The notes below the pieces were generated by a model. It was not told the origin of the DNA. It ran no database searches and saw only the letters and a list, made by a program, of their open reading frames with translations. Both the position numbers and the translations under genes were made by a program. Of a stretch of 55,416 nt of DNA, positions 1 to 55,416 are shown one piece after another (position 1 is the first letter of the stretch; the number at the start of each line of letters is the position of its first letter). The stretch comes from Deltaproteobacteria bacterium (GTDB taxonomy: Bacteria > Myxococcota > JACPTQ01). The DNA is taken from contig JACPTQ010000071.1 in NCBI GenBank assembly GCA_016192705.1, positions 1 through 55,416 on the forward strand, written 5' to 3'.

Positions 1-96
1 CAGACCCGAGGACTTCCGCGAGCCGGAGCGAGCCCAACTCCGACCGCCCCACGCTGGTCTTGGCCGTTAGCCGGGAATCAGGCTTAATCTTGATGG
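1..96 (+). repeat. Element A, copy 1 (CAGACCCGAGGAC family)
   Basis: This dispersed extragenic element starts CAGACCCGAGGAC and ends near CCGGGAATCAGG. It is nearly identical to 9457-9552 over its length and related to 4805-4885, 9073-8975 (minus) and 55057-54972 (minus). The copy may be cut by the window edge. It points toward the tRNA-Val promoter that follows directly. Where copies 3 and 4 have TATAAT, this copy has a degenerate TTAATCT. Confidence 0.8.
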
Positions 97-148: not shown

Positions 149-221
149 AGGCACGTAGCTCAGTTGGTAGAGCACCTCCCTGACGCGGAGGGGGTCGTCG
201 GTTCGAACCCGGCCGTGCCTA
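149..221 (+). tRNA. tRNA-Val (anticodon GAC)
   Basis: A full cloverleaf can be drawn. The acceptor AGGCACG (149-155) pairs with CGTGCCT (214-220), followed by discriminator A221. The D stem is GCTC/GAGC, and the anticodon stem CCTCC/GGAGG encloses the 7-base loop CTGACGC, giving anticodon GAC, which reads valine codons GUC and GUU. The T stem is GTCGG/CCGGC with loop TTCGAAC. CCA is not encoded, so it must be added after transcription. A T-run follows immediately and is also the left arm of a two-hairpin element. Confidence 0.95.
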
Positions 222-304
222 TTTTTTTCGCAATTAGCTGACAGTCCAGTGGACTGTCAGCGCGAAAAAAATGGGTGAGGGCGACGGAACGGAGCCCGAA
301 CCCC
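222..304 (+). repeat. Two-hairpin structured element, copy 1
   Basis: Hairpin 1 has outer stem TTTTTTTCGC (222-231) with GCGAAAAAAA (262-271) and inner stem GCTGACAGTCC (237-247) with GGACTGTCAGC (251-261) around loop AGT. Hairpin 2 has GGGT/ACCC and GGGC/GCCC stems separated by GA/GA, with a loop containing GACGGAAC. Copies at 35868, 46675 and 55355 keep the shape but change the paired bases. Because the T-run is 5' and the A-run 3', this is not a classical terminator. It ends about 50 bases before the start codon at 355. Confidence 0.75.
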
Positions 305-354
305 ACCAACGCGGTACCAAGAACGCAATCGCGTCAGGAGTAAAGAGGTCTTGC

Positions 355-8974: not shown

Positions 8975-9073
8975 TCCCTCATTATAATCCCCAATCCCCG
9001 GAAGCGGTTCGATCGCTCGTGAGCGTGAGGGTCGACAGGAGCCCGCTTCGGCGCGCCGACGTCCTCGGGTCTG
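8975..9073 (-). repeat. Element A, copy 3, with TATAAT
   Basis: Read on the minus strand it begins CAGACCCGAGGACGTCGGCG and ends GGGGATTATAATGAGGG (TATAAT at 8986-8981). Only the two ends are conserved relative to 9457-9552: the first 13 bases, and CCGGGRATNRGGGATTATAATGAGG. It points toward the lipoprotein gene starting at 8868. Confidence 0.75.
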
Positions 9074-9149
9074 ACTTGAGACGTGCGATTGATCCTCAGT
9101 TCAGAGGCACGCGAAAGCTCGGTGGTCCCAGCCGATACCGCGCTGCAGA

Positions 9150-9380
9150 CCCTGCGGATGCGCGCCTGCGCGGCGCCCCTGCTGACCCTACGCAGATCCG
9201 GGGCGGACCGCCTTCCGGAGACGCATTTTCTGGCCTTGAGGGTGGTACGAAGAGTTCACCCGGTGGGTGTTGGCTGACGATCGATCGACCCCCAAGTCTC
9301 TCAGCCGCCGTTTCAGGAAAACGGCCGAGGTCTGGTTGGGCGGGCGGGCATTGGGCAAGCGGAGGCTCGCATCCGCAGGG
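9150..9380. mobile_element. Element C, MITE-like, with 13-base terminal inverted repeats
   Basis: CCCTGCGGATGCG (9150-9162) and CGCATCCGCAGGG (9368-9380) are perfect inverted repeats bounding a non-coding 231-base element. A diverged second copy lies at 55135-55352 without its right terminus. The shared core includes GAAGAGTTCACCC, ACGATCGATCGACCCCCAAG and a GGCTGA/TCAGCC stem. No transposase is encoded. It sits between two outward-facing A elements. Confidence 0.7.
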
Positions 9381-9456
9381 GATGAGGTGCCGATGGGGCA
9401 TGGAATTGCCGTTCTCATGATGTTTGATTCGTTTCGAGCAGACTCACATTTTAGGT

Positions 9457-9552
9457 CAGACCCGAGGACTTCCGCGAGCCAGAGCGAGCCCAAACCCGAC
9501 CGCCCCGCGCAAGTGTTGCCCGTTATCCGGGAATCAGGGATTATAATGAGGT
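9457..9552 (+). repeat. Element A, copy 4, with TATAAT
   Basis: Nearly the same sequence as positions 1-96, ending GGGATTATAATGAGG with TATAAT at 9542-9547. That box is about 40 bases upstream of the start codon at 9586 and is a plausible -10. No good -35 is seen at 16-18 bases. Confidence 0.75.
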
Positions 9553-35867: not shown

Positions 35868-35949
35868 ATTTTGCGAGCAATCGTGCGAAAGCCAGTGGCT
35901 TGAGCACGCGAGCAAAATGGGGAGCGCCTGTTTACAGAGCGCGAACCCC
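35868..35949 (+). repeat. Two-hairpin structured element, copy 2
   Basis: Hairpin 1: ATTTTGC (35868-35874) pairs with GCAAAAT (35912-35918), then CGTGC/GCACG and AAGCC/GGCTT around loop AGT, with an internal loop GAGCAAT opposite CGA. Hairpin 2: GGGG/CCCC and GCGC/GCGC around a loop containing TGTTTACA. It ends 21 bases before the start codon at 35971, and the Shine-Dalgarno sequence GGGGAGGAG follows it. Confidence 0.8.
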
Positions 35950-35970
35950 ACCATTTAGGGGAGGAGCACG

Positions 35971-46674: not shown

Positions 46675-46760
46675 ATTTTGCGAGCCTTCGGCCGAAAAGC
46701 CAGTGGCTTTTCGGTGCGAGCAAAATGGCGAGGCCGACGGAACGGAGGCCGCAGCCTGCC
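46675..46760 (+). repeat. Two-hairpin structured element, copy 3, in the gyrA leader
   Basis: Hairpin 1: ATTTTGC (46675-46681) with GCAAAAT (46720-46726) and CCGAAAAGCC/GGCTTTTCGG around loop AGT; internal loop GAGCCTTCGG opposite TGCGA. Hairpin 2: GGC/GCC and GGCC/GGCC around a loop with GACGGAAC. It ends nine bases before the gyrA Shine-Dalgarno sequence GGAGG (46769-46773). Confidence 0.8.
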
Positions 46761-46778
46761 CCCTTTGTCGGAGGATCC

Positions 46779-49244
46779 ATGGACCTTGAGCGCGTAAGCG
46801 GCGTCGACATCGCGGACGAGATGCGAATCTCGTACATGGACTACGCGATGAGCGTCATCGTCGGGCGCGCGCTGCCCGACGCGCGCGACGGGTTGAAGCC
46901 GGTGCATCGGCGCATCCTTTACGCGATGTTTCGCGAGGGGCTGCTCCACAATAAGCGCTACTCGAAAAGCGCCGGCGTCGTCGGCGAAGTCTTGAAGAAG
47001 TATCACCCGCACGGCGATTCGGCTGTGTACGACGCCATGGTGCGGCTCGCGCAGGAGTGGAACTTGCGCTACCCGCTCGTCGACGGCCAAGGGAATTTTG
47101 GGTCGGTCGACGGCGACCCGGCGGCGGCGTATCGGTACACGGAGTCGCGACTCACGGCGCTCGCGGAGGAGTTGCTCGCCGACATCGACAAAGAGACGGT
47201 CGGCTTCACGCCGAATTTTGACGAACAGACGGTCGAGCCGGTTGTCATGCCCACGCGCATTCCAAATTTGATTGTGAACGGTTCGGCGGGAATCGCGGTC
47301 GGCATGGCGACGAACATTCCGCCCCACAACTTGACCGAGATTTCGAACGCGCTTTTGCATCTCATCGATCATCCCGACGCGACGGTTGTCGATTTGATGA
47401 AACACGTGCCGGGACCCGACTTCCCGACAGGGGCGATTATTTTCGGGCGTGAGGGTTGCCGCCAGGCGCTCGAGACGGGGCGCGGGATCATTCGGGTGCG
47501 TGCGCGTGCGCGAATCGAGCGTGACGAAAAGCGCGATCGCGAAAGCATCATTGTGACCGAGATCCCGTATCAGGTGAATAAGGCGAAGCTCATCGAGAAG
47601 ATCGCGGAGCTTGTGCAGGAAAAGCGGATCGAGGGCGTTTCGGATTTGCGCGATGAAAGCGATCGCGACGGGATGCGCATTGCGATTGAGCTCAAACGCG
47701 ACGCGCAGGCGGGCGTCGTGATGAACCAGCTTTACAAGCTTACCCCGATGCAATCGACGTTTGGGGTGATTCAGCTTGCGATTGTTCAGGGGCAGCCGCG
47801 GGTGTTGTCGCTCAAGGAGATGTTGTCGATTTTCGTCGACCATCGGCGCGACGTCGTGACGCGACGAACGCGGTATGAGCTCAGCGAGGCGGAGAAGCGG
47901 CTCCACATCTTGGAGGGGCTCAAGATCGCGCTCGACAACCTCGATGCGGTGATCGAGCTCATCAAAAAGTCCGCGTCACCGCAAGTTGCGCGCGAACGAC
48001 TCAGTGAGCGCTTTGGGTTGAGCGAAATTCAGGCGCAAGCGATTCTTGACATGAAGTTGCAGCGTTTGACGGGGCTCGAGCGCGAAAAGATTCTCGAAGA
48101 GCATCGACAGGTTGTGGCGGAGATCGCGCGGCTCACGGCGATCCTCGCGTCGGACGAGCTTCTCACGGGCGTCGTGAAGAGCGAAATCGTTGAAATCCGC
48201 GACAGATTTGGCGACAAGCGGCGAACGGAGATTGTCGACGCGGTCGCCGACATCGCGCTCGAGGACATGATCGTCGAAGAAGACATGGTCGTGACGATTT
48301 CACATTCGGGATACATCAAGCGAAACGCGCTAACGCTTTATCGCAGCCAGCGGCGAGGTGGCCGTGGTGTGACGGGGATGGGAACGAAAGAGGAGGATTT
48401 TGTCGTCGACCTTTTCGTGGCGTCGACGAAGAGCTACATCCTTATCTTCACGACGTCGGGTCGACTCTTCTGGCTGAAGGTGCATGAAATCCCGGAGGGC
48501 GGCCGCGCGGCACGGGGCAAGGCAATCGTCAACTTGCTGAAGCTCGAGCCGGGCGAGAAGCAGGCGGCGATTGTGCCGGTGCGTGCATTCGAGGAAGGGA
48601 AAAACGTCGTGATGGCGACGCGGCGCGGAATTGTGAAAAAGACCGACTTGATGGCGTATTCGAATCCGCGGCCGTCAGGAATCATTGGGGTGCTCATCGA
48701 GGAGGGGGACGCGCTGATTGATGCGCGGCTCACCGATGGAACGAAGGACATTTTTATTGGCACGGCCGATGGGATGTCGATTCGCTTCGAAGAGGCGGAG
48801 GTGCGGCCGACGGGACGTGCGGCGTATGGCGTCAAGGGGATCGCGCTCGGCGACAAGGACGATGTGGTTGCGATGGACATTGTGAATCCGGGCGCGTCGA
48901 TTCTGACGGTCACGGAGAACGGGTTTGGGAAGCGGACGCCAGTTGAGGAGTATCGGCAGCAGGGGCGCGCGGGAAGTGGCGTCATCACGATTAAAACGAG
49001 CGAACGCAACGGTCGGGTCATTGGTGTCGCTCAAGTGACGGACGACGATCAAGTGATGCTCATCACGAGTGGCGGTCAGGTGATTCGGACGCGCGTCGCG
49101 GAGATTCGTGAGTCGGGGCGGAACACGCAGGGCGTGAAGCTCATCAATGTGGCCGAGGGTGAGAAGGTTGTGGCGGTGGCACGACTTGCGGAGGGCGATG
49201 GCGATGACGAGGCGCCGCCGGAAAAGCCGGTGGTTGAGGCGTAG
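46779..49244 (+). CDS. gyrA: DNA gyrase subunit A
   Basis: An 821-residue type II topoisomerase subunit that breaks and rejoins DNA. The catalytic tyrosine is Tyr120 in YRYTESRL. The quinolone-determining region [13 protein letters not shown] keeps Ser81 and Asp85 (E. coli Ser83 and Asp87), so no classical resistance change is seen. The GyrA box QRRGGRG (about 525) marks it as gyrase rather than topoisomerase IV, followed by a six-bladed wrapping domain. ATG 46779 with GGAGG was chosen over the open frame from 46725, which would translate the hairpin element. gyrB is not in the window. Confidence 0.95.
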
Positions 49245-54971: not shown

Positions 54972-55057
54972 TCCTCGATCCCCGGATAAGCGGCCAGGTC
55001 TCTTCCGTACGTTGGGTCGGCAGGTGCCGCTTCGGTGCGCCGACGTCCTCGGGTCTG
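54972..55057 (-). repeat. Element A, copy 5
   Basis: On the minus strand it starts CAGACCCGAGGACGTCGGCG and ends CCGCTTATCCGGGGATCGAGG; the TATAAT part is lost. It points at the histidine kinase gene. Most similar to copy 3. Confidence 0.7.
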
Positions 55058-55134
55058 GCCCTCAACCCGTTCGCAAGTCGCACGAACGAAAACATGCGAA
55101 TGAATGAAAACCCGTGCATTCATGGCAGCTCAGA

Positions 55135-55352
55135 CCCTGCGGATGCGCGCCTGCGCGTTGCCCCTGCCGACCCTACGCGAATCCCTCGACCGCTTTCCGG
55201 GGACGCATTTCTTAGGCTTGTGGGCGGTTCGAAGAGTTCACCCGCTGGGTGTCGGCTAACGATCGATCGACCCCCAAGTCTATCAGCCGCCGTTCCCGGG
55301 AAACGGCTGGTTTCTAGTTGGGCGGGCGGGGATTGGGCAAGCGGAGGCTCGC
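55135..55352. mobile_element. Element C, copy 2, right terminus missing
   Basis: Left terminus CCCTGCGGATGCG (55135-55147) and the internal core (GAAGAGTTCACCC, ACGATCGATCGACCCCCAAG, TTGGGCGGGCGGG, GGAGGCTCGC) match 9150-9370. At the point where the right inverted repeat should follow, a two-hairpin element begins instead. The short frames here are shadows; I see no gene in 54902-55416. Confidence 0.7.
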
Positions 55353-55354
55353 GT

Positions 55355-55416
55355 ATTCTGTGAGCAATCGTTGGCAAGCCTGTGGCTTGCCGACGCGAAC
55401 AGAATCGCGAAGGCGA
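55355..55416 (+). repeat. Two-hairpin structured element, copy 4 (cut by the window end)
   Basis: Hairpin 1 is complete: ATTCTGT (55355-55361) with ACAGAAT (55399-55405), then GGCAAGCC/GGCTTGCC around loop TGT, internal loop GAGCAATCGT opposite GACGCG. Only the left arm of hairpin 2 (CGCGAAGGCG) is inside the window. Confidence 0.7.

Follow-up and report, generated by a model that had tools for sequence, protein, structure and literature searches.

A dispersed two-hairpin element in a deltaproteobacterial genome is a small mobile repeat under selection as a folded single strand

Results

Four copies of a two-hairpin element in the window

The window, i.e. the whole stretch of 55,416 nt that was analysed (contig JACPTQ010000071.1 of a Deltaproteobacteria bacterium), harbours four copies of an element of approximately 83-89 nt, all on the + strand. 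Copy 1 (221..310; covariance model score 100.9 bits) is of the tRNA-end type. It directly follows tRNA-Val(GAC) (149..221, + strand), which was identified by ARAGORN, by Rfam RF00005 and in the sequence itself, and base 221 is both the discriminator A73 of that tRNA and the first base of the element. Its parts are hairpin 1 (221-272), hairpin 2 (273-303, GGGT-GA-GGGC / GCCC-GA-ACCC) and a tail, CACCAAC. Copy 2 (35868..35955; 97.4 bits) lies 15 nt upstream of the start codon of a gene assigned by Pfam as PQQ/BamB-like, and comprises hairpin 1 (35868-35918) with a tandem G·A in its inner stem, hairpin 2 (35919-35948) with the CTGTTTACAGA loop, and the tail CACCATT. Copy 3 (46675..46763; 99.5 bits) is made of hairpin 1 (46675-46726), hairpin 2 (46727-46756) and the tail TGCCCCC. 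According to Pfam, its neighbours are a Kelch-repeat gene that ends 37 nt upstream and gyrA, which starts 15 nt downstream. Copy 4 (55355..55416; 62.6 bits) sits within a long repeat that resembles miniature inverted-repeat transposable elements (MITEs). It is truncated at its 3' side, as seen by alignment with other filled repeats, and breaks off in hairpin 2 where the contig ends.

Hairpin 1 is built from an outer stem, a tandem G·A or Watson-Crick step, a bulge of approximately 4 nt, an 11-bp inner stem and a CC-NGT-GG cap. No U-tract follows hairpin 2 on its 3' side in the sequence. A preliminary description had placed the four copies at 222-304, 35868-35949, 46675-46760 and 55355-55416, and these places, the stems, the CC-NGT-GG loops, the GA internal loops and the GACGGAAC loop were all recovered. 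The bounds needed adjustment: the first base of copy 1 is the discriminator of tRNA-Val, and position 55416 is the end of the contig, not that of the element. As for the GA-type internal loop, it is present, but other copies have Watson-Crick pairs at that place, so that it acts as part of a helix.

Reading frames also start in the element. In copy 3, an ATG within it (AAATGG; 46725-46778) opens a frame that continues in frame into gyrA (ORF 46725-49244), and the same AAATGG start in copy 1 (271-450) opens ORF 271-981.

Copy number and range

The genome-wide covariance model search that had been proposed with the preliminary description did return many matches. A model based on the four copies of the window has at least 149 matches in the organism's own genome (E up to 10), 147 of them at E < 0.001. 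The genome searched amounts to 5.21 Mb in 88 contigs and is 96.65% complete, and the presence of gyrA, tmRNA and a class A RNase P RNA identifies the assembly as bacterial. Copies are dispersed in both orientations.

Outside this genome, the covariance model was run on 194 further genomes from the same phylum and had no match. The hairpin-2 pattern was absent from the GTDB genome contigs, a collection that may not include near relatives of this genome. IMG/VR gave three exact matches to the pattern, none of which is an element according to the covariance model. An exact-shape pattern search with one fixed inner stem found no match, because the stems vary among copies. Rfam at the gathering score matched the tRNA alone in the window and nothing on the element, in line with the initial impression that no known family applies; at a permissive threshold, radC came up as a chance match (10.8 bits, with 40 needed).

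Fold and covariation

Compared with dinucleotide shuffles, copies 1 to 4 fold with z values of -8.2, -5.1, -2.2 and -5.4, respectively. In an alignment of 119 distinct rows fitted to the model, 96.6% of the cells pair, 22 of the 27 pairs have changes on both sides, and double-change cells amount to 584, vs 175 expected after shuffling. Sliding the partners by one column lowers the pairing to approximately 41%. As this alignment was fitted to the structure and hence leans towards it, we recomputed the covariation on a structure-free MAFFT alignment of 37 copies, all with pairwise identities below 85%, using APC-corrected mutual information. The top 11 of all column pairs are predicted base pairs, with scores of 0.67-1.23 vs a null maximum of 0.355 (20 shuffles). 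Among the next-ranked pairs are those of the tandem G·A, which are G·A plus A·G in some copies and Watson-Crick pairs in others; the 'internal loop' is accordingly a step of the helix for which either construction will do. In two tRNA-end copies (L125 and L135), the outer stem of hairpin 2 reads CCC...GGG and not GGG...CCC, all three pairs being swapped.

G·U and A·C mismatches are complementary, and equal counts are therefore expected for a duplex or a cruciform. In the paired columns of non-redundant copies, we counted 34 G·U vs 2 A·C (p = 2e-8). This excess indicates that selection sees one specific strand, folded alone. Selection on folded RNA or single-stranded DNA, which the preliminary description had proposed, is thus supported both by the covariation, far above the null in the two alignments, and by the G·U excess. 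Selection acts on one strand of the element as a folded single strand, be it RNA or DNA. Its reading as a structured element was sound regarding the selected fold and the absence of an Rfam family, and incomplete in that the element is a dispersed mobile repeat, not a host regulatory RNA.

An empty site in a long repeat

The long repeat that holds copy 4 occupies the end of the window with its left part (54978..55416; start at approximately 54978, from alignment; arm motif at 55034-55057), and the contig begins inside the right end of another one (1..85; arm motif at 1-24). With both ends of the window inside long repeats, the contig probably breaks there because of the repeat. Another copy (9029..9545) is devoid of the element and displays an empty insertion site, GGCTCGCAT^CCGCAGGGG, at 9372/9373. 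In two homologous repeats (L020 and L016), an element of 88 nt (ATTC...ACCTTT) is inserted exactly at the equivalent of 9372/9373. In the repeat with copy 4, the element begins with ATTC at the same point and can be followed up to the end of the contig.

The long repeat is separate from the element, spans approximately 430-640 bp and has inverted end arms. Its arm motif has 264 matches genome-wide, vs 0 for the control. Several copies are seemingly flanked by direct repeats of 8-9 nt, as read by eye, which makes the long repeat look like a MITE. In many long-repeat copies (L092, L094, L096, L102 and L075), hairpin 2 is interrupted by a third repeat, the short CAAACTTGGTGTCGCGGCAGTGCCGCGCA, which has a hairpin of its own, likewise with an AGT loop.

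In-frame copies in protein genes

Several conserved protein genes tolerate the element in frame. The leucyl-tRNA synthetase (LeuRS) gene (L154) contains a copy that adds 30 residues. This insert is absent from all 72 homologues with a full N-terminal alignment, which lack 25-31 residues there, exactly 30 in 57 of them, and the solved LeuRS structures are likewise shorter at that place. The insertion is flanked by a 7-nt duplication, ACCATTT. Together with the long repeat, this makes two sites with defined insertion ends. Prolyl-tRNA synthetase (ProRS) also carries an in-frame copy and is longer than solved structures at the corresponding position. Other in-frame hosts are a transaldolase/PGI, a phosphatidylserine decarboxylase, NrfD, an AMP-binding ligase, a CusB-like protein, a radical-SAM protein and a flippase. 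For the acyl-CoA ligase, homologues were found, but the alignment did not place the insert cleanly, and a PDB search with the flippase host gene gave no match.

Most copies of the element are free of stop codons in most frames. Hairpin-2 loop variants with a one-base insertion are found in 6 of 14 coding copies vs 7 of 66 other copies (p = 0.0085); the additional base helps to restore the reading frame in coding copies. We also observed that 12 of the 14 in-frame copies are in the sense orientation relative to their host gene, although the antisense frames are equally open. Selection on the peptide or transcription-linked insertion could explain this bias.

Copies at RNA genes

The element is found directly 3' of approximately 15 of the 41 tRNA genes, two nested copies included, and starts 0 or 1 nt after the discriminator base. 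The tmRNA gene is followed by the element in the same manner, and degenerate remnants are associated with the selenocysteine tRNA gene and one tRNA-Leu gene. At tRNA-Trp, one copy lies against the 5' end and is oppositely oriented. At L076:2418-2671, the anticodon loop of a tRNA-Arg gene is interrupted by a copy, and the perfect 82-bp direct repeats on its two sides, an unusually long target duplication, restore an intact tRNA; a similar but older arrangement is found at tRNA-Leu (L079). We considered targeting to hairpins as the cause of the exact tRNA ends and rejected it, since the regions upstream of 54 ordinary insertions are no more structured than controls, and slightly less so if anything.

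A second type of small insert is present 3' of tRNA-Glu, -Met, -Ser and -Thr (L118, L136, L108 and L052:3134-3310), and a duplicate of the tRNA's 3' part comes after the insert. A motif, CGTAAGG...CTCGCTCTCG, is common to the inserts at tRNA-Glu and tRNA-Met, both of which open with the T arm in reverse complement.

Ends, duplications and nesting

Of 63 copies, 96% are preceded by an A or a T. The element starts with a fixed ATTT, and ACC is the motif at which conservation stops on the 3' side. The two ends (ATTT... / ...ACCTTT) do not form an inverted repeat, as hairpin 2 is present at the 3' side only. Clear target duplications were observed at a few copies, namely 7 nt at L009, 8 nt at L071, 9 nt at L068 and 82 nt at the tRNA-Arg copy. 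The mean excess is weak (z approximately 2 for 6-8 bp) and gives little indication of a duplication of constant length. Copies are nested in the hairpin-1 or hairpin-2 loops of others, in one case three deep, and the composites recur. At L006, L081 and L084, a copy is followed by a partial repeat of its own 5' half. Between co-directional genes, 15 copies are sense and 14 antisense.

Search for a mobilising enzyme

Profile searches of the 96.65%-complete genome for Y1_Tnp (PF01797), RVT_1 (PF00078) and the IS110 transposase gave no match, whereas the controls matched; for Y2_Tnp/IS91, the controls themselves had no match. None of ten proteins encoded next to close pairs of elements is a transposase, all of them being ordinary. 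The mobilising enzyme may thus lie outside the families searched, have been lost, or be encoded in the few percent of the genome that the assembly lacks. Hairpin-2 matches that lack a full model match were considered as a potential autonomous version with a gene in hairpin 1, and they turned out to be nested, truncated or contig-edge copies.

Discussion

The element described here is mobile. This follows from the empty paralogous site, the LeuRS homologues devoid of the insert, the in-frame copies, the nesting and the lack of preferred orientation; the evidence comes from a paralogous site and from protein homologues, for one genome with no close relative. We consider it probable (roughly 0.8) that it is a non-autonomous selfish mobile element of approximately 83-89 nt, whose folded single strand is read by an enzyme provided in trans. 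We infer that such an enzyme recognises the fold and that the intermediate is single-stranded.

On this reading, copying would proceed as follows. The element would have to fold as a single strand, either as transcribed RNA or as single-stranded DNA exposed during replication or transcription, and the fold needed would consist of hairpin 1 plus hairpin 2. The enzyme supplied in trans would read the shape and the conserved unpaired bases rather than the sequences of the stems, and active lineages could accordingly swap base pairs freely while the fold persists. A new copy would enter after an A or a T, with its 5' end fixed at ATTT and its 3' end near ACC(TTT), usually with little or no target duplication. 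Presumably, the insertions that survive are those tolerated by the host, i.e. intergenic ones, those directly 3' of RNA genes, and those in frame at permissive sites of proteins, where the mostly stop-free reading frames may help.

A different view is that the element is a functional cis-acting RNA, such as a leader, a terminator, or an element for 3'-end processing or stabilisation, whose spread was driven by what the host needs. The strong single-strand covariation, the exact placement after 15 of 41 tRNA genes and tmRNA, and the position of window copies 2 and 3, both 15 nt upstream of start codons, would all fit such a role. We nevertheless find it very doubtful, as orientation between co-directional genes is unbiased (15 to 14), copies occur in frame within essential enzymes and nested in one another, an empty paralogous site exists, and hairpin 2 is devoid of a following U-tract. 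Could the element instead be a classical MITE, with a DDE transposase binding terminal inverted repeats and moving the element as duplex DNA? It is short, palindromic and present in high copy number, duplications of 7-9 nt are seen at L009, L068 and L071, and the same genome contains a long repeat with inverted ends. However, the ends of the element are not mutually inverted, hairpin 2 being 3' only, and duplications are mostly absent. An enzyme that binds a duplex would moreover generate no strand bias of G·U over A·C, which makes this mode of movement very unlikely.

The mobile-element model does not explain the exact 0-1 nt spacing at approximately 15 tRNA genes, for which a target rule or a function would have to be added. 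One proposal, compatible with that model, is that the tRNA-end copies form a distinct functional class of RNA-gene trailers or terminators from which the mobile form escaped later. Most of them share longer bulges and a hairpin 2 of the GGGT-GA...GA-ACCC or CCC-GA...GA-GGG kind, in addition to their start 0 or 1 nt past the discriminator base. We regard this scenario as unlikely, given that some tRNA-end copies (Lys, one Leu, one Thr and tmRNA) are of the ordinary type, that approximately 60% of the tRNA genes have no element, and that the copy at tRNA-Trp adjoins the 5' end in the opposite orientation. A bolder idea would make the element a bacterial mobile RNA, transcribed behind tRNAs, with its exact 5' end produced by ordinary tRNA 3' processing and its folded RNA as the intermediate that is written back. 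We give it little credence. If true, bacteria would have an equivalent of the tRNA-launched short interspersed elements, and the enzyme that copies it would be a hitherto unknown one.

Coming back to the reading as a selfish element, it belongs to the small non-autonomous palindromic mobile repeats, and we found no earlier description of it in open-licence papers. Rickettsia palindromic elements (RPEs) are high-copy repeats of 105-146 bp with terminal inverted repeats, found in intergenic regions, as in-frame fusions within conserved protein genes, and also in tmRNA and RNase P RNA (PMC2229807). Our element is similarly high-copy, palindromic, intergenic and in frame in conserved protein genes, LeuRS among others. 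However, its length of approximately 83-89 nt (88 nt for the resolved insertion), its asymmetric ends and its second hairpin set it apart from RPEs as described. It also adjoins the 3' ends of tRNAs and tmRNA, whereas RPEs lie within RNA genes, and it belongs to another organism. In the bacterial repetitive extragenic palindromes (REPs), mobility acts on one single strand. REPs are 20-40 bp long, with a GTAG or CGTC tag on one of their ends (PMC3733652). Like REP/BIME repeats, which are associated with RAYT transposases, our element is a structured, dispersed palindrome in bacteria, but it is longer, its end sequences differ and have no GTAG/CGTC tag, and no Y1_Tnp was detected in the genome. 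MITEs such as ERIC, Correia, RUP and BOX are short non-autonomous repeats, some of which are read through in frame (PMC2229807, PMC10969869). The element shares these traits but has no terminal inverted repeats; target duplication is mostly absent and its covariation is specific to a single strand. As for RNAs mobilised by reverse transcriptases of the group II-like or retron-like types, they differ in that RVT_1 was not found in the 96.65%-complete genome.

In form, the closest likeness is with mitochondrial double-hairpin elements (DHEs) and repetitive hairpin-forming elements, which consist of two adjacent hairpins, are mostly intergenic with some in genes, and are thought to be mobile, possibly via RNA since flanking duplications are lacking (PMC10085805, PMC2800124). 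Our element also consists of two adjacent stem-loops and is dispersed in many copies, but in a 5.2-Mb bacterial genome, whereas DHEs reside in organelle genomes. In the hairpin elements of sponges, stems are conserved and loops variable (PMC2800124); here, in contrast, the loops are conserved and the stems covary. How RPEs or DHEs move is unsettled, and the element provides unusually clear statistics for selection on a single strand, which makes the question of an RNA or single-stranded DNA intermediate testable. In addition, LeuRS and ProRS with a tolerated insert of 30 residues represent a natural experiment in essential enzymes. The entry into genes in frame that is typical of RPEs and the double-hairpin form of organelle elements are thus combined in one bacterial genome, in at least 149 copies.
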